DNA of 45,354 nt from Saprospiraceae bacterium. GTDB lineage: Bacteria > Bacteroidota > Bacteroidia > Chitinophagales > Saprospiraceae. Positions 5,146 to 45,354 of the stretch are shown piece by piece (positions within the stretch are counted from its first letter, which is position 1; every line of letters begins with the position of its first letter). The notes below the pieces were generated by a model. That model saw only the letters and a program-made list of their open reading frames with translations. It was not told where the DNA came from and searched no databases. The stretch spans positions 1 to 45,354 of the forward strand of contig JADLHA010000049.1 of NCBI GenBank assembly GCA_020848995.1, in the 5' to 3' direction. A program made the translations under genes and the position numbers.

Positions 5146-8004
5146 TCAAAGTTTATAAATTCTGAATAGATTTCTCGAGGTTTTGGTAATCACTTCCCCC
5201 AGATAAATACCGTTATTAACACTCTCCAATGATATTTTTAAATTAAATCTTCCATTTTCCACTAAATTCTTACCATAATATATATTGCGACCCATTAAAT
5301 CATAGATTTTAACACTGCACATATTCACTCCATTTGATGTACCACCTATATTTAACTCGTCTCCCACAGGGTTCGGAAAAACAGCGAAGTCGCCAATACC
5401 AACAATATCTTTTACATAAATAATAACTACGTCCTTACAAACTGATGTATCAGTGCAATTATTCTGCGTAATTTCTACACAATAACTTCCATTTTGAGTA
5501 GGAGTAAAAGTCTTATCAGTCGCATCACTAATGGCTTTCTTGCCATCATTACAATCTAACCATCGATACGTTGCACTATTTGCATTAGCTGTTAGAGTAT
5601 TACCAACTTTATTAACAGAATTATCCACATTACTAACAAATACATTCATAAATTGTTCAGATCCCTCGCCGCATTGATTAATTCCTCTAACATAAATGCT
5701 AGTAGATAGATTAGAGGCTTTAAAAGTAGCAACTGTTGATTGACTCGGCGGCATTTCACTCCAACTCATTGTCGATTCGCGCCAACGATATTTATCGGCA
5801 TTAGGTAGAGCTAGAATTTCATATGTATTTAAAGAATTAGCGCAAACCGTATCATTGCCGGTAATTAGTTGTGGCGTCTCAGGGAAAGGCACAATGGCAA
5901 TTCCCAAGTCCTGTACTTCACTTTCACCACAATCATTGACGGCGAAAACTTTTAATGTAATTGAAGTGCTTCCAGCTGTCAAATTCACAGAATTATTAGT
6001 CGAATTATCAGATATCCAACCTGAATTAGCGGGAATGGTTTCCCAACGATATTTCTTAGCATTTTGTACTGGAAAAACAGCGTAAGTATTCATAGTTCTT
6101 GGGCAAACCTTAATATTTCCGCTAATTGGACTTGGTTTACCAGGAACAAATTTCACCTCAATATTAAACATTTCCTGATCACTTTCCCCGCATTCATTTA
6201 TTGCGCTAACCTTTAATTGACCAGGCCAATTTCCTGCATTTGCCAAGTATGTATCTGTTATTGATCCATTCCCAGACCACCCAGCTCCTGCTATCTGCCA
6301 AAAATACTTAGTCGCATCTTTGACAGGCAAAATTTTATAGGAATTATTCTGCGACCCTGCGCATACAATGCTATCTCCTACGATACTATCAGGCCTATTT
6401 GGTACAGTAATTATTGTTACATCAAAAGGTTTAGAAACATTAAATGAGCAGTGACCATCAGTTACAGTAACCTTATAGCTTGTGCTCACACTAGGATAAA
6501 CAACGATACTAGACGAACTATCATTTGTGTTCCAATGATAGGTACATCCAGAACAGGTATTAACTGACAAAATTAAACTAGTACCCTTACACAATTTATT
6601 TGGCCCTTTCGATGTTATGGTAGCTTCGGGACTATGAGTGCTGTATTTGATTGTTTGAATATCTTTATCATTGCCATAACAATTTGAATATCCAGTGAGA
6701 TAAATATTATCATATTGATCTAAGCACATTGCTCTCGTAAAATCTAGACCTAAATTACCACAATCATAAGTTTCATTCCATATTAGATAACCAGAGGTAT
6801 CATATTTTATTAAAAATATATTCCCTAATGAATTGTTACCCGATATTACAATTCCTGGTTCATCCATATCATTTGATAACGCCATAGAAATAGGGTATTC
6901 ACTTGCGTTTGAGGTGAAATCATAGCGTCTTACGTCCCAAAATGTGTCTAACTGAGTAGAATTCCATGCCATAGTCAATAAGTAATTATCAGAACCTCTA
7001 ACCTCTGCTGCTGCATAAATAATCCCTAACCTTGAGTCTATAACAGCACTTACTCCACTAATTTCGCCATTACCTAAAGTAAAATGCCTATCGGCCCATG
7101 CATCCCAAGTTATAACTTTCGGTTCCCATTTGTCATAAATGTTAGTAAACTTTGATAGTCTAGTATATTTAGAACTAGTCGGCGCAGAACTTAGAACAAA
7201 AACAGCATCACTGAAATCGACCATCACTGATATTGCTACTCCAGGCATATAAGTACTATAACCTATTGTATTGTATTGATTAATGAGATGACCAAAAGAA
7301 GTATTTAGCTCATAAATTCTAAAATAAACTTCGTTTCCATACACTCCCCCATTATCTGTAACAAGAATATTGCCATTATTCTTTTTAGTAATTAAATTAC
7401 AGTAATTGTTAACATAAGGACTATTACTCTGGTAATAGTTAGACCACAGAGGAGTATTCGATAAATTGGAGTGATATTTTATAACAATACCATCTGTTTT
7501 ATTACTGCTTGAATGAAATGTCGATCCAACAATATAAATATTTCCAACTTGATCAATATCTAAATTGTGAGGTTTGTCATCTTTGTTTAGCGTACCATTG
7601 AAAATCAGAGGCCCACCTTGCATAACTCCGTTTGTGTTATATTTAATAGTAACAATATCAAATCCACCTACAGCACTTTTACTATATCCTGTAACATATA
7701 CATTTCCCGCTTTATCGACCTTAAGAGCGGTTGCAAAATCATCACCATTTCCAGATCCATTGTATCTCCTTGACCATACAGTGTCACCTTTTGTATTATA
7801 TTTAATAATCAAATAATCACTGAAACCATTGGTTGCCTCGCTAGATCCAATAGTATAAGTATTACATTGGTTATCAATAGCAACACTATTACCTTGATCA
7901 TTTGCCAACGGACCATTATACGTAGAAGTCCATTGCAGGTATGGTTGAGATCTCACTGCCAACCAAATGAATAAAACAAAAGTAGTAGAAATTAAATTCT
8001 TCAT
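5146..8004 (-). CDS. T9SS-exported protein with SBBP repeats and PKD/Ig-like domains
   Basis: 952 residues. A signal peptide (MKNLISTTFVLFIWLAVRSQ) is followed by about 440 residues of SBBP-type beta-propeller repeats with the recurring motif GNVYVTGYSxS...DIVTIKYNTNG. Residues about 460-865 hold several PKD/Ig-like domains with repeated Y-x-W-x3-P and ...V.A.N.CGES... motifs. The last ~80 residues are a type A T9SS sorting domain (VFPNPVGDELNIGG, then KIYDLMGRNIYYGK, ending RNLFRIYKL). By family knowledge it would be secreted and anchored at, or released from, the cell surface. Codon use is AT-rich like its neighbours and unlike the genes beyond 11 kb. Ligand or role unknown. Confidence 0.9.
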   Translation of the reverse strand: MKNLISTTFVLFIWLAVRSQPYLQWTSTYNGPLANDQGNSVAIDNQCNTYTIGSSEATNGFSDYLIIKYNTKGDTVWSRRYNGSGNGDDFATALKVDKAGNVYVTGYSKSAVGGFDIVTIKYNTNGVMQGGPLIFNGTLNKDDKPHNLDIDQVGNIYIVGSTFHSSSNKTDGIVIKYHSNLSNTPLWSNYYQSNSPYVNNYCNLITKKNNGNILVTDNGGVYGNEVYFRIYELNTSFGHLINQYNTIGYSTYMPGVAISVMVDFSDAVFVLSSAPTSSKYTRLSKFTNIYDKWEPKVITWDAWADRHFTLGNGEISGVSAVIDSRLGIIYAAAEVRGSDNYLLTMAWNSTQLDTFWDVRRYDFTSNASEYPISMALSNDMDEPGIVISGNNSLGNIFLIKYDTSGYLIWNETYDCGNLGLDFTRAMCLDQYDNIYLTGYSNCYGNDKDIQTIKYSTHSPEATITSKGPNKLCKGTSLILSVNTCSGCTYHWNTNDSSSSIVVYPSVSTSYKVTVTDGHCSFNVSKPFDVTIITVPNRPDSIVGDSIVCAGSQNNSYKILPVKDATKYFWQIAGAGWSGNGSITDTYLANAGNWPGQLKVSAINECGESDQEMFNIEVKFVPGKPSPISGNIKVCPRTMNTYAVFPVQNAKKYRWETIPANSGWISDNSTNNSVNLTAGSTSITLKVFAVNDCGESEVQDLGIAIVPFPETPQLITGNDTVCANSLNTYEILALPNADKYRWRESTMSWSEMPPSQSTVATFKASNLSTSIYVRGINQCGEGSEQFMNVFVSNVDNSVNKVGNTLTANANSATYRWLDCNDGKKAISDATDKTFTPTQNGSYCVEITQNNCTDTSVCKDVVIIYVKDIVGIGDFAVFPNPVGDELNIGGTSNGVNMCSVKIYDLMGRNIYYGKNLVENGRFNLKISLESVNNGIYLGEVITKTSRNLFRIYKL

Positions 8005-8149
8005 AACAAAGAAATTTCAAAAGTAATGAACAAGATTAATGAGACTAGAATAATTTCTTCACCTCATAAGTTATCAAAAAATCATATCCCCTTTCCACGT
8101 GTATATTATCCATCGATATGTTAATATACCTCTCATTATTAGAATAATA

Positions 8150-8299
8150 TTATATACGGGCTTCCACACCATAATTATCAAAATTCATAATTATTTCTCC
8201 AAATCCCTTATGTGTAGAATGTGCTCTTGCCAATACAGATGCCGCAATGCTAACACCATCATTTACTACACCCTTAGTTGAATTGCCTTCACTCTTCAT
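8150..8299 (-). CDS. Possible 49-residue small ORF
   Basis: ATG at 8299, TAA at 8150, on the minus strand. The product begins MKSEGNSTKGVVNDGVSIAA and ends NFDNYGVEARI; composition is soluble and ordinary for a protein, unlike the low-complexity translations around it. No family recognised. It could be a real small gene or the remnant of a larger one. Confidence 0.25.
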   Translation of the reverse strand: MKSEGNSTKGVVNDGVSIAASVLARAHSTHKGFGEIIMNFDNYGVEARI

Positions 8300-8685
8300 A
8301 AAATTGTATTTTCAATTGCTTAAATTATTGCATAAAATTGAAATTCACAAACTTATATCCCCTCCGTGAATATTTCTAATTATTGCTTGAATTGAGACAT
8401 TTAAGTAGCCTAGCAACCACAATCCTAAAGCGTACTGGAAAAAATATGAGTATTCACTAGATCTCATACCACAGTTTTTATCTAGGTTCTTGCATTTGAA
8501 CGCCTGATGCTAGCAATTTAAGTACCACACAAATGATTTACCGCCTCATATCATGAGGTTATAAGTATAGATTATTATTCTCTCCAATTTTACCATCCAT
8601 CATAAAAGTAATCTCGTACAGAATGCTTCTTATACTCAGGATACCTTCTAGAAATTTATTATCATTTAAATGCCGTTGCTCCTCA

Positions 8686-35600: not shown

Positions 35601-36852
35601 CTACTTGTGGCGCCGGTATGGAGACCGTCCAGTTGGGAAATGCAGCAACATTTGAAAATGATCCAGAGCTGAGGTAAAGTTCTAATGACTGAAAGCAGGC
35701 CGGTGAGGCGACATGCCCCCCTACTTCGTAGCAACAGCCGCCCGGTCCACCGTTGATGGTCTTTATGGTATTGGTGTTGAAAGTGTCGCAGGCGCAGGGC
35801 TTCCCCTTTACATGTATCGTATCCACACACTGTCGTATGCAGTTTCCCTCCCTGGCGATCAGGCGAACGGAATAAGTCCCCGGCAAGGTGTACAGCAGCG
35901 CAAGCGAGTCGACATTGAAAAAACGCAAGCCGCTGAACTGGTCGACGTCGACGATCCAGGTGAGCGTCGTCAAAGGGTCCCTGGTTCCCAGATACCGGAT
36001 GTTCACGGAATCACCTGTACAGATGTCATGGGGCAGGGTGAATTCGCAACTCAGGTCGCAGATGTATTCGTAACATACGGTGTCGGAACACAGGTCATCA
36101 TATACTTCTACGCAATAGCACCCGTCGGCATCCGGTGCATAACAGCTATCGGAAGACAGGGTTCGCGATCCTCCACACAGAAGCCAACGGTATTGCTTAT
36201 TTGACGGAGATACGCACAAAACATTATACTCTTCCCGGATTTCGGCAACAAATGGCGGCACAACCGTCAATTGCGCTTTAGCATTTGGAGCGTCGTTGGT
36301 GCAGAACTGGTCGGTGACCACGGTAATTTCGTAACTCACGGGATCGTCCGGACATACTTCCCAGGAGAGGGTATCCACATCCGAAAGGTGGCGGGTGATG
36401 TCGTTGTTGGTCTTTAGAAAAAAAACGAACGGAGGGGTTCCGGTAATTTTTACGTTCAGCCGGGTGCAGGTTCCTTTGCAGATGACGGGGCGGTGGAGGT
36501 TCAGCGAGGCCTTCGGCTTTGGGTAAACGACGACTTCGACGGTGCAGGAATCAGGGGCCTGGCCACGTTCCTGCCAGACGACTTTGATGGTACAGATCCC
36601 GGACTTATCAAAGCAGGCAATGTGGGGATTGTAGTCGTTGGGGTTTGTGATGGTTCCGCAACTGATGCTCCACTGATAACTCGCCGTGGGGGAACCGGCG
36701 CCGATGTAGGTGACCGGATGGCATTCTCCTACACAAGCGCCGGAAACCACCTCAATGCAGTTGGTCTGGGCGGACAACGAGGGCGCCCACGCCAACATGA
36801 GCAGCGGCATAACGCGCACCGCGAGGTCAACAAACCTTTTTAAGTGCTTCAT
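32635..36852 (-). CDS. T9SS-exported protein with PKD-like domains, five Cys-rich repeats and a beta-propeller-like region
   Basis: 1405 residues. Signal peptide ends near residue 29 (LAWAPSLSAQ). Residues ~30-350 hold PKD/Ig-like domains with many Cys. Five ~124-residue repeats follow (about 353-473, 478-598, 603-721, 726-844, 849-967; DNA about 33,950-35,800), each starting C-x-CDSL and containing a CC(Y/W) pair, a G(S/T/N/Y)F strand, a GF(I/L/F)P.G motif and an F-DC end. Residues ~985-1320 have propeller-like repeats (NIAAWDGANWYPLAQGV; LLYAGGLFQTAGN). The last ~75 residues are a type A T9SS sorting domain (AYPNPAGDYIDLHI ... GTYVISIWLPGG). Surface or secreted protein; partner unknown. Confidence 0.9.
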   Translation of the reverse strand: MKHLKRFVDLAVRVMPLLMLAWAPSLSAQTNCIEVVSGACVGECHPVTYIGAGSPTASYQWSISCGTITNPNDYNPHIACFDKSGICTIKVVWQERGQAPDSCTVEVVVYPKPKASLNLHRPVICKGTCTRLNVKITGTPPFVFFLKTNNDITRHLSDVDTLSWEVCPDDPVSYEITVVTDQFCTNDAPNAKAQLTVVPPFVAEIREEYNVLCVSPSNKQYRWLLCGGSRTLSSDSCYAPDADGCYCVEVYDDLCSDTVCYEYICDLSCEFTLPHDICTGDSVNIRYLGTRDPLTTLTWIVDVDQFSGLRFFNVDSLALLYTLPGTYSVRLIAREGNCIRQCVDTIHVKGKPCACDTFNTNTIKTINGGPGGCCYEVGGHVASPACFQSLELYLSSGSFSNVAAFPNWTVSIPAPQVVVLQPVAGFITPGDFSAGAFCVTGAQFYTIDVYYHFGNAGVADSCSFRYVFDCPWPPEPVRCDSLFSYLERQHTLPTECCYNLHVDNPYPATFQQIHISLNSGYFVNPQADQLGGFSLLNVGPQSLTVVHNSGFIPAGVNRPAWFCLSGTSNPVQVDVHYTFSSLGVTDSCSFHFEFDCPELPDAECCDSLFVIFKDAPPQPGACCWDFELVTNKPKCFSKCCISANSGTFSNIVANPGWNASQTPGGICFSPVGPFIPSGLVAPGSLCLTGAANPVTFIVEFYDLNGKLNDSCKQRGVRECFSGPPPCTCDSLKANVTGTSFLPGQCCYDLNAVIPATNCFQKAQILLSAGNFANAMAGSGYTLTANGPQDICYSPVSGFFPQGNVMPGSFCVVGATVYTVTVHFFYSTGGGIDTCTFKYFFDCPPPPPVCRCDSLQNAFTPVSAAPGICCYALTGNVPASNCFTHIDLQLTNGSFANVQSFAGWSATLNNPQSISISHASGFLPAGNIHPVDFCVAGATTYQITATYYINSGGLMDTCIFKRTFDCPFLADTLCLSQACRGGMRSWQNLASGLSQVFDMVVYQCRLIVAGQFSQAGNVPVNNIAAWDGANWYPLAQGVAGTVRALAVHNGLLYAGGLFQTAGNLSNVNNLAAWNGSSWLQVDNGVTGTTGASVTALLSTPAGLVVGGDFQTAGSTSNLSCQNMALWNGAAFVNNYNATFNGPVYTLGTYGGQLVAGGTFTTPHLNIASWNGSAWSPLSGGITLFYQLPYNGVASQIDYGGSLIVGGHYKHADNVSTTQNIAQWNNSAWNAMPGGDIPDTLAIVNDFLPFDNKLYVGGEFTQVGNVPALGVVEWNGAGWNTTGHTHKIVRALAAYDSCGTYPCDLYASGEGFLNRWICLTSTNETERAIQCRAYPNPAGDYIDLHISPALPGYCTLRIADMHGRIHLIRNVQGEFVRIPVEQWPSGTYVISIWLPGGKPMHARFVRQ
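33952..35796 (-). repeat. Five tandem Cys-rich ~124-codon repeats
   Basis: Within the 1405-residue gene, five units of about 372 bases each encode the same Cys pattern (CDSL ... CC ... CF ... GF(I/F/L)P.G ... FC(V/L).GA ... DTC.F...FDC). Sequence identity is moderate, so duplication is old; the third unit is the most divergent. Confidence 0.75.
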
Positions 36853-36933
36853 TTGATACGCAAATTCTTAATAAACTCATTTAACATGGTTCGCAGATCC
36901 CCACAGGAAACTTAGCCCTCAGCTCTCTACTCA

Positions 36934-37371
36934 TCACTTTGGGATATCAAATCCTTTAAAATCACCTTTCTTATCTGTCTGGAAAGGTACCATATTCGGA
37001 GCGTTCCACCCACAGGGCTGCTGTTGCTGGGCGTCGCAGCCGTTTTCCGGAGTTTTGCAGACCATGTTGATGGTAGCAGCATAGCCTTTGCTGGGCATCA
37101 GCCCGGAGGGATTTTTGGGAAATTTGGCAATGCCATTTTTCTCCGTCTTGGCAACAAGTACCGGAGCTGGAACACACTTCCTGTCCACGCACTTGCACAA
37201 AGGCTTCGCCGGATCGAAGATCATGACTTCGATCCCTGGAACCCCTGTGCCCTTGTTATCCCGCACAGCAATCTGGTTTTTACCCTGTGCGAAAGGGGAC
37301 GCAGGCAAGACGAACAAAAAAAACAGGATAGCGCAATACGGCAGGTGGGATGTTAAAAGTACTCTTTTCAT
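36934..37371 (-). CDS. Small exported protein, Cys-rich, unknown function
   Basis: 145 residues from ATG 37371 (MKRVLLTSHLPYCAILFFLF...), with a signal peptide ending near PFAQG; upstream ATGs in frame would hide it. The mature part starts with a CarboxypepD_reg/transthyretin-like strand pattern (NQIAVRDNKGTGVPGIEVMI) and has Cys at PLCKCVDRKCVP and VCKTPENGCDAQ. Perhaps a small Ca- or carbohydrate-linked domain; not recognised. It follows the 49-bp repeat array and has its own candidate promoter. Confidence 0.6.
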   Translation of the reverse strand: MKRVLLTSHLPYCAILFFLFVLPASPFAQGKNQIAVRDNKGTGVPGIEVMIFDPAKPLCKCVDRKCVPAPVLVAKTEKNGIAKFPKNPSGLMPSKGYAATINMVCKTPENGCDAQQQQPCGWNAPNMVPFQTDKKGDFKGFDIPK

Positions 37372-37452
37372 GATAAAACTTTTAACCGGTGAATTATTAA
37401 TCATTCCTCCCATCCTCTTCAGCGTCCTTGAAGGGATTTCCATTTCAACCTT

Positions 37453-37484
37453 TAAATATACAACTTTCACATGGGAAAAGCAAA
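37453..37484 (-). promoter_or_regulatory. Candidate Bacteroidota promoter of the small exported protein
   Basis: On the minus strand TTTG (37484-37481) and TATATTTA (37460-37453) are 20 bases apart, a good fit to the -33/-7 pattern with one mismatch in the -7 box. A start near 37446 would give a leader of about 75 bases before ATG 37371. Confidence 0.35.
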
Positions 37485-37851
37485 AAAATAGCTGCCTCTT
37501 TTAACAATATCGCCTCGTGCATTTGGCAAGGGTTTAAATCCAATTGGCGTTTTGTCAGATGTAACCTCTTTTACTATATTCTTTTTACAACGGGTCGCCA
37601 TCATAGGGTTTTGCTGAAAGGGGGTAATCGTCACTTTAAGGCAAGACAAAAAGAAGTGGCTGCGCATCACCGAACACAAAAAAGCTCGTTGAGTCAGAGG
37701 AACTTTGAAAAAAGGATCTTATTTGGCATCTGGTATAGATGCGACCAGTTGCCGGCGGGTTCAGATGCAGATCAATAATTTTCTTTGGCTCAGGCATCCC
37801 TTCTTTTCAAATTCATTGCTCACTTCCAAAGCCTCGAAGTTTTGGGACAAA
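37485..37851. other. Intergenic region before the 49-bp array
   Basis: About 370 bases with no convincing ORF on either strand. A stretch near 37739 (GATGCGACCAGTTGCCGGCG) faintly resembles a decayed array unit. Nothing else recognised. Confidence 0.4.
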
Positions 37852-38460
37852 GGTGCGACCCCTCCAGGGTCGGTAATTCCTATTCCCTGCATTCTACCAA
37901 GGTGCGACCCCTTCGGGGTCGGTAATTCCTATTACCATCATTCTACAAAGGTGCGACCCCTTCGGGGTCGGTAAATCTAATAGCCGTCATTCTACAAAGA
38001 TGCGACCCCTTCGGGGTCGGTAATTCATATTACCGTCATTCTACAAAGGTGCAACCCCGACGGGGTCGGTAATATTTATTACCGTTATTCTACCAAGATG
38101 CGACCCCTTAGGGGCCGGTAATTCTTATTACCATCATTCTACAAAGGTGCGACCCCTTCGGGGTCGGGCGTACCAACTGCCGCTTTGCTATAAATGTTCG
38201 ACCCCTACGGGGCCGGTAATTCTTATTACCATCATTCTACAAAGGTGCGACTCCTTCGGGGTCGGTAATTCTAATTACCATCATTCTACATAGGTGCGAC
38301 CCCGACGGGGTCAGTAATTCTTATTACCGTCATTCTACAAAGGTGCGACCCCTACGGGGTCGATTATTTAATAATCTTCAGTCATACAAATTGATAACCT
38401 CAACGGGGTCGGCAATTCTTATTAGCATCACTCCATTCATGTTCGACCTCTACGGGGTCT
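37852..38460. repeat. Tandem array of thirteen 49-bp units, each with two hairpins
   Basis: Unit starts fall exactly every 49 bases: 37852, 37901, 37950, 37999, 38048, 38097, 38146, 38195, 38244, 38293, 38342, 38391, 38440; the last unit is incomplete. Each unit contains a perfect or near-perfect stem CGACCCC-TTC-GGGGTCG and, in most, a second stem GGTAAT-TCTT-ATTACC, then a CATTCTACAAA spacer. Loop bases vary freely (TTC, GAC, TAC, TTA) while stems are largely conserved. It is not CRISPR: there is no unique spacer between conserved repeats. It lies between the terminator of the giant gene and the promoter of the next gene. Confidence 0.9.
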
Positions 38461-38540
38461 CTCTTGGCAACAAGCATCGCGGAACAAATCTGGGATTCAA
38501 TCCTTCCAATGAGCTTTTCGCGAGTTGCAGATGGTGACCA

Positions 38541-38582
38541 AAACAAAGGAAGCGAACCTGATCGGCTCGCCTCCTTTGTTTC
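38541..38582 (-). terminator. Strong 18-bp-stem terminator of the giant surface-protein gene
   Basis: The minus-strand transcript reads AAACAAAGGAGGCGAGCC, a GATCA loop, then GGTTCGCTTCCTTTGTTT. All 18 positions pair, two as G-U. On the plus strand those two become A-C mismatches, so the structure favours the minus-strand RNA. It begins about 20 bases after the giant gene's stop (38603). Confidence 0.8.
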
Positions 38583-38602
38583 AGTATTTATTTGCGCCGG
38601 AC

Positions 38603-41600
38603 TTAGCGCTCGATGATGAGCTGCTCGGTCCGTTGCTGGTAGCCGTCGGATACCTGGATGAGGTACATTCCGCTGCGTACTTCCAGCACATTCATGTCGA
38701 GTTCGAGGACGTTCTGGTTGGCTTTGAGCTTCACGCTAAATACCTTCTTGCCCAGAAGATCCATCATGGTCACTTCCTTCACGCGCTGGTCGAAACCGGT
38801 AATGAAGACTTTGGTCACCACACTGGCTGGATTGGGCACGAGCTCAACATCCACCGGCCGGTATTCGTAAGCCTTCAAATCGTTTTCGCGATCGCGCTCC
38901 TCCGTTCCGGCAAATGCCGTCAGCGTGAAGAACCATCCGTTTACAATGGCTGAGAAGGTCGTACCACATTTGGATCTGATCTGGTAGTGGTAATAGGAAC
39001 CATCGTCGAGGCCTGTGAACGAATGTTTGTTGCCAGGACCGGAAGCGGCTGCCCAGCTACTCCATGGACCCCATACACCGGGGCTGATCTCCTTGCGGAT
39101 GCGCAGCTGATACGACGTTGCGCACAATCCTGCACTCCAGGCAATCTTGGCTGAGCTGGTTGTCGTGTCATAGTGGTACACATTGACCGGCTGACCACAA
39201 TTGTATGCGATCACCGTTACCTTCTGGTTGCACGTGTTCTTGTTGTTGCTCGAGTCTTTCACCGTCCATTTAACCGTTGTGACTCCAACCGGGTAGGAAG
39301 CCGGAGAATTGTTGGTGATCGGGTATTTCACACCACAATTGTCGGAAACCGTTGGTGTGCCCAGCGATACCGACCCAGCCGGTACAGAACACTGTCCGGG
39401 GAGTGTGGTGACCGTAATGTCGGGCGGGCAGGTGATCGATGGCGGCTCGAGGTCTTTCACTTCCACCATAAAGCTGCAGGTCGTAGAATTGCCTGCGGCA
39501 TCGGTGGCCGTCCAGGTTACTGTTGTTACCCCTTTCTTCCAGAGCTGTCCGTCGAGGCTGCCAGAACCAGAGCCCGTTTCGACTCCTGTCAGTACCCATG
39601 TTTTGCTGACCACTCCACAGTTGTCGGATGCAGAGCCATCAAACTCACCGGGTCCACCAGAATACGCTCCGCCCACCGTATAGCGGCAAAGCCCTTCATC
39701 CATTCCACGCATCAGATTAGCCGGACAGGTCATTGTCGGATAGGTCACGTCCTTGCCGGTGAGCACGGTCGTGCAGGTAGCCGAATTGCCGTTGCCATCG
39801 TCAACCGTGACGGTGACCGTATGGGTCATGTTATGTGCCGATGGCAGTGAAGTGCCTGCGGTGGGAGATTGAGCCCAGGTAAAGCTGCTGGAGCAATTAT
39901 CCGTAACGGTAGCACCATCAATCAGGTTCAGAACAACCAGCTCGCAATCTACGTCGAGGGTTACATCCTGAGGTCCTTCACAGACAGGTGCCGGAGGTGT
40001 GGTATCGTCGCCCATCAGGACAACCGTACAAGTTGCTGTATTGCCGTTGGTATCATCGACGGTTACGGTAATGGTATGCGTCATACCCTCCCCTGATGCC
40101 AACTCCGTACCGGCAGTTGGCGACTGGCTCCAATAGAAGCTGGTAGCGCAGTTGTCGTCTGCTGTCGATCCATCCGTCACATCGGGTACCAGCAATTCGC
40201 ATTCTGCATCGAGAGCGATGGTCTGTGGAGCTTCGCAAGTCGGCACCGGAGGTGTCGTGTCGTCGCCTGTCAGCACTACTGTGCACGTTGCCGTATTGCC
40301 GTTTCCGTCGTCGGCCGTTACGGTAATCGTATGCGTCGTGCCTTCGCCAGATGCCAGTTCTGCGCCAGCAGTGGGCGACTGGCTCCAGGTGAAGCTCGAC
40401 GAACAATTATCCGTTGCAGAAGCGCCGTCGGTCAGGTCGGGTACCAGGAGTTCGCACTCTGCATCGAGCACGATGGTTTGTGGTCCCTCGCAGGTCGGCA
40501 CCGGAGGTGTTGTATCGTCGCCCGTCAGCACCACCGTGCAGGTAGAAGTGTTGCCGTTGCCGTCATCTGCCGTTACGGTTACCGTATGCGTTACGCCTTC
40601 ATCTGAAGCCAGAATGGTACCCAACGTTGGCGACTGGCTCCAACTGAGGGTTCCACAGTTGTCGCTGCCGGTGGATCCATCCAATACATTCGGCACCACC
40701 AGTTGGCACAGTGCTGTAAGGCTGACCGATTGGGCAGCTTCGCAACTGATCGACGGCGAGGTATCGTCGTCGCCCGTCAGCACGACCGTGCAGGTTGCAG
40801 AGTTGCCATTGCCGTCGTTGGCTGTAACCGTCACGGTATGCGTCACGCCCTCACCAGAGGGAAGTTCCGCGCCCGCAGCGGGTGACTGGCTCCAGGTAAA
40901 GCTCGAAGAGCAATTGTCGATGGCCACAGCACCGTCTGTGAGATCCGGAACCGGAAGTTCACAGTCACCGTTCAGGCTGACCGTCTGCGGTCCTTCACAA
41001 ATCGGCGTTGGAGGCGTCACGTCGTCGCCCGTCAGTACCGTGGTACACGTGGCGCTGTTGCCGTTGCCATCGCTTACCGTTACGGTAATGGTGTGCGACA
41101 CACCTTCACCGGAAGCCAGAGCAGATCCTGCGATCGGACTCTGTGACCAGGTGAAACTGGAAGAGCAATTATCGGTTGCAGAAACCATGTCGATGACGTT
41201 GGTGACCACCAGGATGCACGCGGCGTTGAGTGAAATGGTTTCCGGCCCTTCGCAGACCGGTACCGGAGGCGTTGTATCGTCGCCGGTCAGTACTACAGTG
41301 CAGGTCGAAGTATTTCCGTTGCCATCGTCAACTGTTACCGTCACGGTGTGGGTCATACCCTCTCCGGAAGCCAGTTCGGTACCCGAAGTAGGCGACTGGC
41401 TCCAATAGAAGCCCGCAGCACAGTTGTCTGTTGCAGATGCACCGTCTGTCAGATCGGGCACCAGCAGGTCGCATTCAGCATCGAGAACAATGGTCTGAGC
41501 TCCTTCACAAGTCGGTACCGGAGGCGTCAGGTCATCACCCGTAAGTACAACGGTGCACGTTGACGTATTTCCGTTGCCGTCGTCGGCCGTAACCGTCACG

Positions 41601-44600
41601 GTGTGGGTCACCCCTTCTCCGGAAGCCAGCAGCGTTCCCATAGTAGGTGACTGGCTCCAACTGAGGCTGCTGCAGTTATCGCTACCCAGTGCACCATCCG
41701 TCAAGTCCGGAACCGCCAGCTCACAGCTTGCGTTGAGCGCAATGGTTGCCGGCCCCTCGCAACTGATGGAAGGCGCAGTTACGTCGTCGCCGGTTAACAC
41801 CACCGTACAGGTCGAAGTATTTCCGTTGGTGTCATCAACTGTAACCGTTATTGTGTGGGTCGTACCCTCTCCGGAAGCCAGTTCGGTGCCCGAAGTAGGA
41901 GACTGGCTCCAGAAGAAGCTCAACGAACAATTATCTGTAGCGGAAGCGCCATCGGTCAGGTCGGGAACGAGTAGCTCGCATTCAGCATCGAGGGCAATGG
42001 TTTGTGGCCCTTCGCAGCTTGGAACCGGCGGGGTATCGTCATCACCCGTCAGCACCACTGTGCAGGTAGTCGTATTTCCGTTGCCGTCGTCGGCCGTAAC
42101 GGTAACAGTATGGGTTACCCCTTCGCCGGACGTTAGCAATGTTCCCATTGTAGGTGACTGGCTCCAGCTCAGGCTGCCGCAGTTATCGCTACCCATTGCA
42201 CCATCCGTCAGATCAGGAACGGGCAATTTACAGGTGGCATCCAGGCTCACCGATTGCGGACTTTCACAACTGATTGAGGGTGCGGTAATGTCGTCCCCAG
42301 TCAGTACGACGGTGCACGTTGCACTGTTTCCGTTTCCATCGTCGGCCGTTACCGTCACGGTATGGGTCGTCCCCTCGCCTGAGGCAAGTTCGGCCCCGGC
42401 AGCAGGAGATTGAGCCCAAGTAAAGCTAGAAGAGCAATTATCGAGCGCCGAAGCCATGTCGGTAAGGTCAGGCACCAGCAATTCACATTCGGCATCGAGC
42501 GTGATGGTCTGTGCGCCCTCGCAGGTGGGTATCGGCGGTGTCGTGTCGTCGCCTGTAAGGACTACTGTGCAAGTAGCCGTATTGCCATTGCCGTCGTCGG
42601 CCGTAACGGTGATCGTATGGGTCGTTCCTTCGCCCGAGGCCAATTCCGAACTGGCTGTGGGCGATTGGCTCCAGGTGAAGCCCGATGCGCAATTATCCGT
42701 TGCGGAAGCGCCGTCGGTCAGGTCGGGGACCAGCAGTTCGCACTCTGCATCCAGCACGATGGTTTGTGGTCCTTCGCAGGTCGGCACCGGAGGCGTCGTG
42801 TCGTCGCCCGTCAGCACCACCGTGCAGGTGGAAGTGTTGCCGTTGCCATCGGTTGCCGATACGGTCACGGTATGCGTAGTGCCTTCTCCGGAAGACAGCA
42901 GCGTTCCCAATGTCGGAGACTGGCTCCAGCTAAGGCTTCCACAATTGTCGCTGCCTATAGAGCCGTCGAGGACATCGGGTACTGACAATAAGCAAAGTGA
43001 CGATAAACTGACGGATTGTCCAGGCTCGCAACTGATCGAAGGCGCAGTTGCATCATCGCCGGTGAGAACCGTCGTGCAGCTGGCGCTGTTGCCATTACCG
43101 TCGGAGACGGTTACGGTAACTGTATGGGTCGTTCCTTCGCCTGACGCCAGTTCACTACCTGCCGCAGGCGACTGGCTCCAGGTAAAGCTCGTTGAACAAT
43201 TATCTAAAGCAACTGCCCCATCAGTCAAGTCAGGGACCAGCAATTCGCATTCTGCATCGAGCGCAATCGTCTGAGGCGCCTCGCATACAGGGGTAGGCGG
43301 CGTCACATCGTCGCCGGTCAGTACCGTGGTGCAAGTAGCCATGTTGCCATTGCCGTCGGAAACCGTTACCGTTACGGTATGGGTGGTACCCTCTCCGGAA
43401 GTCAGGCCTGTTCCTGCGATCGGGCTTTGCGACCAGGTAAAGCTAGAAGAGCAATTATCCATGGCCGCGGCACCATCGGTCAAATCAGGGACAGTCAGAA
43501 TGCACGCCGAAGTCAGACTGATGGTTTGTGCGTCTTCGCAGTCGGGCGTTGGAGGTGTCGCATCGTCGCCGGTGAGGACCACGGTGCACGTTGAAGTATT
43601 TCCATTTCCATCACTGGCTGTAACCGTTACGGTATGTGTAGTTCCTTCCCCGGATACCAGGGCAGTTGAAGCGGTGGGAGATTGGCTCCAGCTCAGGCTT
43701 CCGCAGTTATCACTGCCACTTGCTCCGTCTGTAAGGTCTGGAACGACCAGCTCACAGGATGCATTCAATACAATGGTCTGCGGTCCTTCGCAAGTGACTG
43801 AAGGAGGTGTAATATCGTCTCCGGTGAGTACTACTGTGCAGGTCGCGGTGTTTCCGTTGCCGTCGTCTACCGTCACGGTAACCGTATGAGTTGTGCCGTC
43901 GCCGGAAGCAAGCAAGCTACCGGAAACCGGGCTTTGGGTCCAGGTAAACCCTGCAGAACAGTTATCCGTTGCAGAGGCACCATCTGTGAGATCCGGAACC
44001 AGCAGTTGGCAACTGCCATTGAGCACAATGGTCTGTGCAGGTTCACATGCAATCCCGGGAACCTCGTTGTCTTCAACGGTTACGTCAAAGCTACAGGTAG
44101 TTGAATTCCCAGCTCCGTCGGTTACGCGGAAGGTATTGGTCGTCGTTCCCAATGGGAAAGCCGATCCGCTGGCCAATCCGCCGATTTGTGCCGTCGATGC
44201 ACCAGGACAGTTATCGGTTCCTACCGGAGCAGTATAGCTCACAACAGCCGTGCAAACACCCGGATCGGTATCCACCGCAGTGCTCGAAGGGCAGGCAATT
44301 GCTGGGGCCTCGTCGTCTTCTACGGTAACGTCGAAGCTACAGGTGGTAGAGTTTCCGGCTCCGTCGGTTACGCGGAACGTATTGGTCGTCGTACCGATCG
44401 GGAAGGTCGCTCCGCTCGCCAGCCCGGCAATCTGCGAGGTGCTTGCACCGGGACAGTTGTCTGTGCCGACTGGAGCGGTATAGCTCACCACGGCGTCGCA
44501 ACTGCCGGCATCTGTTCCGACGGTCATATTGGCCGGACAGGTAATGGCGGGATCCTCTGTATCCTCAATGGTTACGGTAAATGTGCACGTAGCCGTGAGG

Positions 44601-45354
44601 CCGCCTGCATCCGTTGCCGTATAGGTGACCGTCGTAGTCCCTATTGCAAAGAAGCTGCCTGGGAAGTTTGTAGTTGCCAGGGATACGCCCGGACAATTAT
44701 CCGAAGCGGTTGGCGCTGTCCAACTCACGGTCCGTCCGCACAGGCCTGGATCATTGCCGAGAGGTCCGATGTTCGACGGGCATCCCGTAATGACAGGATT
44801 TTCAGTATCCTTAACGAGTACCGTAAACGAACAGGTGTTCGTATTCCCGTTGACATCGGTGACCAGGTAGGTCACGGTGGTCGTGCCGACCGGGAAGAGC
44901 GCGAAGGAAGACGTACCTATGGTGACGATCACCACCGAAGGATTGCTGGTGGAAACCGTCATCGATGCCACGCCGCAATTGTCTGCCGGAACAGGTACTG
45001 TCCATGAATGGATCTGCTGGCAGGTACCGCTGGTTGCTGTCAGGGTAACATTGGGCGGACAGGTGACTGTCGGCAGCTCGTCGTCGACTACCACCACCTC
45101 AAACTCACAGGTATTGGTGTTGCCGCTCATGTCCGTTACCGTCCATATTACCAGCGTCGTTCCCTTTGCAAATACATACCCTGCAAGCGTGCTGCTCGCG
45201 TTCAGATTGTTGCTGATCGTTGCCATTGGGCAGTTGTCCGCAAACGTCGGATCAAACTCCCCAGCTACTGCTGTATACGTACATACTCCCGTATTCGTAT
45301 TGCGGCTCTGAGGATTCGAAGGACAGCTGATCGTCGGCAGCTCGATATCGCTCA
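38603..45354 (-). CDS. Giant HYR-repeat T9SS-exported surface protein, C-terminal part (start outside window)
   Basis: The frame is open to the window end. The first in-window ATG (45226) is internal: upstream codons continue a HYR domain (DIELPTISCPSNPQ ... GEFDPTFADNCP). About 2250 residues are visible. In order: about five HYR domains (two near-identical, about 44,050-44,550); 17 tandem ~85-residue Ig/HYR-like repeats (C-E-x-x-Q-T-I ... LVPDLTDG ... DNC ... WSQSP ... THTVTV.DGNGN..TC..VLTGDD.TPP); two more HYR domains; an FN3-like domain (IAWSAGLCATSYQLRI); and a type A T9SS sorting domain (LVPNPASVVTKVFI ... MYLIQVSDGYQQ). Probably a long stalk-like adhesin (inference). Confidence 0.93.
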   Translation of the reverse strand, partial: SDIELPTISCPSNPQSRNTNTGVCTYTAVAGEFDPTFADNCPMATISNNLNASSTLAGYVFAKGTTLVIWTVTDMSGNTNTCEFEVVVVDDELPTVTCPPNVTLTATSGTCQQIHSWTVPVPADNCGVASMTVSTSNPSVVIVTIGTSSFALFPVGTTTVTYLVTDVNGNTNTCSFTVLVKDTENPVITGCPSNIGPLGNDPGLCGRTVSWTAPTASDNCPGVSLATTNFPGSFFAIGTTTVTYTATDAGGLTATCTFTVTIEDTEDPAITCPANMTVGTDAGSCDAVVSYTAPVGTDNCPGASTSQIAGLASGATFPIGTTTNTFRVTDGAGNSTTCSFDVTVEDDEAPAIACPSSTAVDTDPGVCTAVVSYTAPVGTDNCPGASTAQIGGLASGSAFPLGTTTNTFRVTDGAGNSTTCSFDVTVEDNEVPGIACEPAQTIVLNGSCQLLVPDLTDGASATDNCSAGFTWTQSPVSGSLLASGDGTTHTVTVTVDDGNGNTATCTVVLTGDDITPPSVTCEGPQTIVLNASCELVVPDLTDGASGSDNCGSLSWSQSPTASTALVSGEGTTHTVTVTASDGNGNTSTCTVVLTGDDATPPTPDCEDAQTISLTSACILTVPDLTDGAAAMDNCSSSFTWSQSPIAGTGLTSGEGTTHTVTVTVSDGNGNMATCTTVLTGDDVTPPTPVCEAPQTIALDAECELLVPDLTDGAVALDNCSTSFTWSQSPAAGSELASGEGTTHTVTVTVSDGNGNSASCTTVLTGDDATAPSISCEPGQSVSLSSLCLLSVPDVLDGSIGSDNCGSLSWSQSPTLGTLLSSGEGTTHTVTVSATDGNGNTSTCTVVLTGDDTTPPVPTCEGPQTIVLDAECELLVPDLTDGASATDNCASGFTWSQSPTASSELASGEGTTHTITVTADDGNGNTATCTVVLTGDDTTPPIPTCEGAQTITLDAECELLVPDLTDMASALDNCSSSFTWAQSPAAGAELASGEGTTHTVTVTADDGNGNSATCTVVLTGDDITAPSISCESPQSVSLDATCKLPVPDLTDGAMGSDNCGSLSWSQSPTMGTLLTSGEGVTHTVTVTADDGNGNTTTCTVVLTGDDDTPPVPSCEGPQTIALDAECELLVPDLTDGASATDNCSLSFFWSQSPTSGTELASGEGTTHTITVTVDDTNGNTSTCTVVLTGDDVTAPSISCEGPATIALNASCELAVPDLTDGALGSDNCSSLSWSQSPTMGTLLASGEGVTHTVTVTADDGNGNTSTCTVVLTGDDLTPPVPTCEGAQTIVLDAECDLLVPDLTDGASATDNCAAGFYWSQSPTSGTELASGEGMTHTVTVTVDDGNGNTSTCTVVLTGDDTTPPVPVCEGPETISLNAACILVVTNVIDMVSATDNCSSSFTWSQSPIAGSALASGEGVSHTITVTVSDGNGNSATCTTVLTGDDVTPPTPICEGPQTVSLNGDCELPVPDLTDGAVAIDNCSSSFTWSQSPAAGAELPSGEGVTHTVTVTANDGNGNSATCTVVLTGDDDTSPSISCEAAQSVSLTALCQLVVPNVLDGSTGSDNCGTLSWSQSPTLGTILASDEGVTHTVTVTADDGNGNTSTCTVVLTGDDTTPPVPTCEGPQTIVLDAECELLVPDLTDGASATDNCSSSFTWSQSPTAGAELASGEGTTHTITVTADDGNGNTATCTVVLTGDDTTPPVPTCEAPQTIALDAECELLVPDVTDGSTADDNCATSFYWSQSPTAGTELASGEGMTHTITVTVDDTNGNTATCTVVLMGDDTTPPAPVCEGPQDVTLDVDCELVVLNLIDGATVTDNCSSSFTWAQSPTAGTSLPSAHNMTHTVTVTVDDGNGNSATCTTVLTGKDVTYPTMTCPANLMRGMDEGLCRYTVGGAYSGGPGEFDGSASDNCGVVSKTWVLTGVETGSGSGSLDGQLWKKGVTTVTWTATDAAGNSTTCSFMVEVKDLEPPSITCPPDITVTTLPGQCSVPAGSVSLGTPTVSDNCGVKYPITNNSPASYPVGVTTVKWTVKDSSNNKNTCNQKVTVIAYNCGQPVNVYHYDTTTSSAKIAWSAGLCATSYQLRIRKEISPGVWGPWSSWAAASGPGNKHSFTGLDDGSYYHYQIRSKCGTTFSAIVNGWFFTLTAFAGTEERDRENDLKAYEYRPVDVELVPNPASVVTKVFITGFDQRVKEVTMMDLLGKKVFSVKLKANQNVLELDMNVLEVRSGMYLIQVSDGYQQRTEQLIIER
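39731..44050 (-). repeat. Seventeen tandem 252/255-bp coding repeats
   Basis: Twelve units are 85 codons (type F, with FTWSQSP, FFWSQSP or FYWSQSP) and five are 84 codons (type L, with LSWSQSP). From the N-terminal side the order is F L F F L F F L F L F F F L F F F. Outer units, especially the last, are the most diverged. Blocks of consecutive units are duplicated: units 3-6 (about 42,527-43,543) correspond one to one with units 12-15 (about 40,241-41,257). Confidence 0.85.

Follow-up and report, generated by a model that had tools for sequence, protein, structure and literature searches.

A tandem array of a REP-like hairpin element in a Saprospiraceae genome, probably the orphaned partner of an IS200-like Y1 transposase

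Short extragenic hairpins with a conserved tetranucleotide at one end and variable stems have been described as GTAG REPs, and in REPtrons several copies of them flank the gene of a Y1 HUH transposase (PMC3733652 and PMC6006769, in the parts available). The search rules for REPs in the available part of PMC6006769 place GTAG or GTGG 0–2 nt 5′ of the structure. In the same part, single-stranded recognition of tag and hairpin is described for IS608 and the E. coli TnpA-REP, and REPs of other bacteria are stated to affect RNA in some cases. The TnpA-Y1 subclass 1.2 is assigned there to the Bacteroidetes and is closely related to the IS200 transposases; within the sections available it is generally without typical terminal structures, and its table entry under REP is “no” (PMC6006769). 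In Chryseobacterium, RayT genes have been named near a resistance gene, with hairpins or palindromes unmentioned in the available part of that text (PMC11194056).

The window analyzed in this study, a stretch of 45,354 nucleotides from a Saprospiraceae bacterium, contains 13 tandem units of 49 bp each (37843–38479, + strand), which are arranged head-to-tail in a 1.2-kb gap between two − strand genes. The thirteen 49-bp units reported in the initial annotation were borne out by an alignment without any gap. Tandem Repeats Finder determined a period of 49 with a score of 666 and 0% indels across 37847–38362, the final units being more diverged. The mean column identity among the 13 units was 83–84% (two registers tried), and all units share one orientation and one period. 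The consensus unit consists of TTCTAC-AAA-NRT-G, a GC hairpin (CGACCCC-NNN-GGGGTCG), an AT-rich hairpin (approximately GGTAAT-NNNN-ATTACC) and a short spacer, in this order. The element of the array can be written as the tag CTACAAANRT followed by a hairpin, the loop of which begins 18 nt from the tag start.

The inner units u2 to u10 (37892–38332, + strand) are mostly alike. The tag is eroded in the edge unit u1 (37843–37891, + strand) as well as in u12 and u13, which together with u11 form the other end of the array (38333–38479, + strand). The similarity of adjacent units was 0.731 vs. 0.723 for other unit pairs, so a simple duplication of neighbors is not seen. A CRISPR was rejected because the whole 49-bp unit is repeated without spacers, and a coding repeat because 49 is not divisible by 3. 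Approximately 110 bp before u1, the sequence TATAGATGCGACC (37734–37746) might be a worn extra unit; it is absent in the sister species.

The first, GC-rich hairpin retains at least 6 of its 7 pairs in all 13 units. About 8 of 13 units have a sound second, AT-rich hairpin, so that the two conserved hairpins per unit claimed in the initial annotation hold in full for the first stem and in part for the second. In the consensus register, 5/5 pairs of the second stem were found in 7 of 13 units (u2, u4, u5, u6, u8, u9, u10). In u11 it is replaced by a different perfect palindrome (GATTATTTAATAATC), in u1, u7 and u13 it is reduced to a 4-pair stem, and u3 and u12 are without a contiguous second hairpin. 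The mean pairwise difference among the 13 units was 0.114 for stem 1 compared to 0.393 for loop 1, and 0.321 for stem 2 compared to 0.494 for loop 2, with values of 0.378 for the spacer and 0.253 for the tag. This agrees with the earlier statement that stems are kept and loops are free to vary. Compensatory changes, also raised there, are weak inside the array (3 cells, equalled by 36 of 500 shuffles) and clear for the inner pairs across the family of elements described below; the within-array signal was dropped as a proof of structure. The proportion of paired cells inside the array was 87.2%, which was equalled by 15 of 500 shuffles. Folding of the whole array as RNA resulted in a z of −6.8 (20 shuffles), and DNA folding of 4 of the 13 units in z values between −2.1 and −3.5.

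The array follows the stop codon of a gene for 2,207 amino acids (38603–45226, − strand) with HYR domains and a secretion C-terminal sorting domain. Inside this gene, a 255-bp coding tandem repeat is located at 39991–42898. The next − strand gene past the array encodes 145 amino acids (36934–37371; start chosen by the analyst) and has no Pfam match. Its protein was not matched in 60 other genomes of the family sample; in the sister species G456, which lies outside that sample, a 159-aa counterpart occupies the equivalent position. An inverted repeat with 18-nt arms (38541–38581, − strand), also present in the sister species, is a plausible terminator of the 2207-aa gene, and it was not listed by the terminator scan. 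Of the placement between a terminator and a new promoter that had been proposed, the terminator is thus plausible and the promoter unconfirmed: in 36800–38800 a single promoter-like site was found, on the + strand (37552–37580; 1 vs. 2.7 in shuffles), by a scan that covers one promoter type and leaves other types outside its coverage. The promoter box TAnnTTTG of Bacteroidota is similar to the tag as it reads on the opposite strand, a lead that was set aside. The Rfam search of 36800–39000 returned two matches, both outside the array, with E-values of about 0.7–0.8 and far below the gathering scores.

The array site was compared within the genus to that of the sister species G456, which has the same neighboring genes, including a 1405-aa gene with 85% identity. 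Here, 5 units are present at the same site vs. 13 in the window's genome. The distance between two shared anchors is 631 bp in the window and 238 bp in G456, a difference of 8 × 49 + 1 bp. Units u1 and u11 to u13 have counterparts in G456, and u2 to u10 account for the extra length, so it is the inner block that differs. The two genomes are draft assemblies of 52 and about 70 contigs, so the array length might reflect the assembly, although the units are distinct from one another. In the seven other genomes of the genus, the unit model had no match at E ≤ 0.001. For the 1405-aa neighbor, five of these seven members have only partial matches (at most 52% identity) and two have none at E ≤ 1e-20. 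In G456, the interval from the array to the 159-aa gene is longer by about 1.2 kb of additional sequence (L290, about 7493–8662) that includes tandem repeats with GGCTTCGACTCCGCTCAGCCAGCGGA, a motif also present close to the decayed transposase piece on C20 in the window's genome.

Further copies, for which a search had been proposed in the initial annotation, were looked for in the genome of the window. A unit-pattern search identified only the array, besides one match on contig C28, the stem of which is unrelated. A covariance model of the units reported the 13 units and one further element (C20:53151–53210) at E ≤ 0.001, with 150 of 633 candidates scored. The dispersal in many copies that characterizes REPs in the broad sense was thus not found in this search, which left the array and one other copy. 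The C20 element has 28 identical bases in common with u3 (37944–37971, + strand) and u7 (38140–38167, + strand). It lies 90 bp from a degenerate piece of a Y1 transposase of the YxxxQxxHH type with two stops (C20:53300–53533; E 1e-12 in a profile search), in the orientation found downstream of most intact genes elsewhere. The same pairing of a decayed transposase piece with one element was found on contig C10 of G456, which has another short copy of the element on its C20. An intact gene of the YxxxQxxHH type was not matched in the window's genome at E ≤ 1e-15, a threshold at which 168 of 395 genomes of the phylum sample have a match to the profile.

For the analysis of the element in other genomes, a strict tag pattern was used, which was found in 42 of the 395 phylum genomes, the window's own included. 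In many of the matches the tag precedes a GC hairpin, and others look like chance matches inside genes. The tag-positive genomes have 1 to 19 strict matches each, some of them by chance. Y1 transposases (PF01797) were searched in 20 genomes, 18 of them tag-positive, resulting in 90 matches in 18 of the 20. The neighborhoods of 40 of these 90, mostly the stronger ones and three with an internal stop, were examined in stretches of up to 20 kb from 15 source genomes, all tag-positive. Within 250 bp of the 40 matches, the element density was 1.50 per kb (30 elements in 20.0 kb), compared to 0.03 per kb at 5–11 kb (11 in 352 kb). Between these, 24 elements were found at 250–500 bp (19.9 kb), 15 at 500–1000 bp (39.5 kb), 4 at 1–2 kb (79 kb) and 5 at 2–5 kb (232 kb). 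The reversed tag, used as a control, gave 2, 2, 2, 2, 8 and 11 matches in the six bins from near to far, corresponding to 0.10 per kb within 250 bp and 0.03 at 5–11 kb. An element was present within 500 bp of 16 of the 40 Y1 matches vs. 4 of 40 for the control; the other 24 matches are without one at this distance, and one locus supplies 15 of the 54 near elements.

In genomes outside this census, five of them tag-positive, 11 of 18 further genes had an element outside the gene at a distance of up to 600 bp (reversed-tag control 2 of 18) and 7 had none; the profile that ranked these 18 genes was built largely from tag-flanked genes. The hairpin was also assessed after selection by the tag alone at 56 loci, with the off-centre loci L248 and L249 of the 18 further ones left out. 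A stem of at least 5 pairs whose loop begins 18 nt from the start of the tag was found at 73 of 98 tags within 700 bp, compared to 6 of 97 beyond 2 kb. For covariation, 40 non-redundant elements were chosen by their two innermost pairs. The next three pairs were paired in 37, 36 and 36 of the 40, where 1,000 shuffles reached maxima of 30, 28 and 33. For the fourth and fifth outer pairs, covariation was slight or absent, with 20 of 40 paired in each case and shuffle maxima of 20 and 26. Stem sequences vary across the family and inner positions keep their pairing. Of the nearest elements within 500 bp, 10 of 12 upstream elements are on the strand opposite to the gene and 10 of 11 downstream elements on the gene's strand. 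At the level of whole genomes, the window's own left out, the gene was found in 33 of 41 tag-positive genomes vs. 135 of 353 others (Fisher p 4e-7, kinship ignored). In 8 tag-positive genomes the gene is absent, and chance matches occur among the strict tags.

Tandem arrays also occur beside intact genes. In Planktosalinus lacus (G367; Flavobacteriaceae, Bacteroidota), a YxxxQxxHH gene is flanked on both sides by arrays with mostly 49-bp spacing and stems such as TGACCYC/GRGGTCA. Public genomes were scanned with three tags at a spacing near 49, which covers periods near 47–51 only and is therefore uninformative on period preference. At least 119 stretches were found, and among those listed 40 have the hairpin geometry of the family. 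Among the listed stretches, a Y1-profile match was found in 9 of the 40 with this geometry and in 2 of the 79 others (p 0.0009); the nine, again among those listed, include Desulfonema magnum and a draft genome of Melioribacter. At another locus (L203; G302:C1, near 1350329), the elements upstream of a YxxxQxxHH gene are mostly 53–54 bp apart and carry CTATTAAC in place of CTAYAAA, which suggests that variants of the tag exist. In the window's own genus, no tag-plus-hairpin element was found within 500 bp of the near-full-length genes L294 to L296. A weaker relative in this genus (L298) has a tagged palindrome directly after the gene at a different spacing, and GC hairpins without the CTAYAAA tag (TATATAGCCCCGCTGGGGCTATATA and TAGCCCAACTGGGGCTA) are located 54 and 135 bp past the gene L295.

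The partner transposases have H55, H57, Y115, Q119, H122 and H123 invariant in an alignment of 16 rows (A3). Among the 40 census matches, the motif is YxxxQxxHH in 37 and YxxxQxxQH in one, and two are without a readable motif. The partner genes thus combine the HUH and YxxxQxxHH motifs expected of TnpA-Y1 subclass 1.2, which is further marked by a C-terminal domain of its own and by its place in the tree. The one member scanned (L063) scored 66.7 bits with the IS200/IS605 model (cut-off 55) and 33.1 bits with REP_Tyr_transpos, below the cut-off of 80. The A3 profile matches 8 solved chains, including ISHp608, and the nearest structures are IS200/IS605 transposases; the structure 2xm3 is that of ISDra2. 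An IS200-type transposase is indicated by both the score and the structure matches.

Like GTAG REPs, the element is a short extragenic hairpin with a conserved tetranucleotide at one end and variable stems, and as in REPtrons several copies flank a Y1 HUH transposase gene (PMC3733652 and PMC6006769, available parts). This flanking, which marks a REP in the broad sense, was found in other genomes and in the genome of the window only beside the decayed piece. Unlike in GTAG REPs as described in those parts, the tag is CTAC or CTAT 5′ of the hairpin, several bases lie between tag and stem, and the partner enzyme is IS200-like. GTAG or GTGG 0–2 nt 5′ of the hairpin was not found. Since CTAC is the reverse complement of GTAG, the polarity is opposite to that of GTAG REPs. 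The element is REP-like in the broad sense, yet without the defining feature of GTAG REPs. With subclass 1.2 the partners share the YxxxQxxHH motif and the occurrence in Bacteroidetes, and unlike the subclass as far as it is described in the available part of PMC6006769, many members here are flanked by hairpin elements. This suggests that many members of subclass 1.2 do have a REP-like partner element. The enzyme family is that of the IS200/IS605 elements IS608 and ISDra2, the left end of which likewise has a tetranucleotide 5′ of a subterminal hairpin (PMC6006769, available part). An IS200/IS605 element is a mobile unit with a left and a right end around the gene. Here, single hairpin units occur, often several or in tandem, and elements lie inverted around several genes. 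Clustering of REP-type hairpins between genes is shared with BIMEs and REPINs, in which REPs are paired in inverted orientation according to the available part of PMC6006769; the 13 units of the array point one way with one period.

Taken together, the array is best read as a tandem-amplified REP-like hairpin, the partner of an IS200-like YxxxQxxHH Y1 transposase whose gene has decayed, and now probably a passive remnant; a probability of about 0.84 is given to this reading. The transposase would recognize tag and hairpin in single-stranded DNA and would have moved or copied the hairpin element. The array may then have grown or shrunk through slippage, through unequal recombination or by units being inserted repeatedly at its own tag, the data fitting each alike, and decay of the transposase gene would have left it orphaned. 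The expansion of a REP-like unit considered in the initial annotation is supported by the neighborhoods of YxxxQxxHH genes. These also favor its further suggestion of a substrate for a REP-associated transposase, with the difference that the enzyme is of the IS200-like YxxxQxxHH type and decayed here; that it acts on the array unit is what we infer from its neighborhood. Of the other roles suggested there, insulation, RNA stability and protein binding gained neither support nor contradiction. The overall interpretation given there is thus partly supported.

Since the transposase gene is decayed, the array is probably a passive remnant of variable length with, at most, incidental effects on RNA. 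Nothing shows activity here, as the search of the window's genome yielded no intact YxxxQxxHH gene. Neither a cut junction nor an empty site was seen. Unless the unit is served by a different Y1 enzyme, activity in this lineage today is unlikely. A candidate for a different partner is encoded on contig C27 (18109–18339, L067), an apparently open gene of a canonical REP-associated transposase of the YIHNNP type in a 193-aa frame, the protein of which passes the NCBIfam model REP_Tyr_transpos (100 vs. a cut-off of 80 bits). No array-type elements were found beside it: the unit model, with 150 of 633 candidates scored, gave no hit on C27, the tag scan of the 3.2-kb locus gave one weak match with a different stem, and the matching element adjoins the YxxxQxxHH piece instead. 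On these grounds the C27 gene was rejected as the partner. Ownership of the array by this gene is accordingly the most improbable of the readings considered.

A plain minisatellite, in which a hairpin-forming 49-bp segment multiplied by slippage independently of any transposase, would account for sister species that differ in copy number by whole units and for tandem copies found only at the array site in the window's genome (150 of 633 candidates scored). Slippage may well explain the growth of the array but not the unit itself: in the window's genome the core of the unit is found again next to the decayed transposase piece, and many genomes have the tag and the geometry next to YxxxQxxHH genes; this explanation is therefore considered very improbable. 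A role for the host in RNA insulation, 3′-end formation or stability for the 2207-aa or the 145-aa gene, weighed by plausibility, is somewhat less remote and still unlikely. The array lies between two same-strand genes past a plausible terminator, its fold as RNA is strong, and REPs elsewhere can affect RNA (PMC6006769, available part). Terminator-like sites in 36800–38800 numbered 7 vs. 2.4 expected, with 5 of the 7 within the array, but hairpins alone predict such an excess, the number of units is not kept between the sister species, and the edge units are eroded.

Under this reading, a group of transposases that was stated in 2018 to lack such an element would gain a DNA partner, for which tag, 18-nt distance and hairpin are a simple signature that can be tested, and a class of tandem hairpin repeats between genes of Bacteroidota would be accounted for. 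The two sister species differ in array length (13 and 5 units) and both retain a decayed gene piece beside one element, which makes them a test of enzyme-free length change. A published description of CTAY-tagged hairpin elements was not found among the matches listed in a search that was thin on subscription literature. The wider proposal that CTAY-tagged hairpins form a third superfamily of REPs, in addition to GTAG and CGTC, is tentative and rated somewhat below even odds. Such a superfamily would have IS200-like Y1 partners of subclass 1.2 and a geometry resembling that of a left end, in which the tag is 5′ and the loop follows after 18 nt, and would extend across Bacteroidota and into lineages such as Desulfonema and Melioribacter. 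IS200/IS605 enzymes insert 3′ of the tetranucleotide flanking their left end. If YxxxQxxHH enzymes insert likewise, each new unit would be placed at the tag of a unit already present, and head-to-tail arrays of exact period would build by themselves.

Two observations were made outside the Bacteroidota. In the complete genome of Desulfonema magnum (L089; NZ_CP061800.1), tag-hairpin arrays of 49–51 bp are located near two Y1-profile matches. In cyanobacteria (L082, L092, L101, L161, L163, L174 and L175, the last in Oscillatoria), 25-bp tandem arrays of the form CTACRAACTTTGGGCTAAAGCCCAA were found, which have most of the tag in common with the array of this study and carry the hairpin at a shorter distance.
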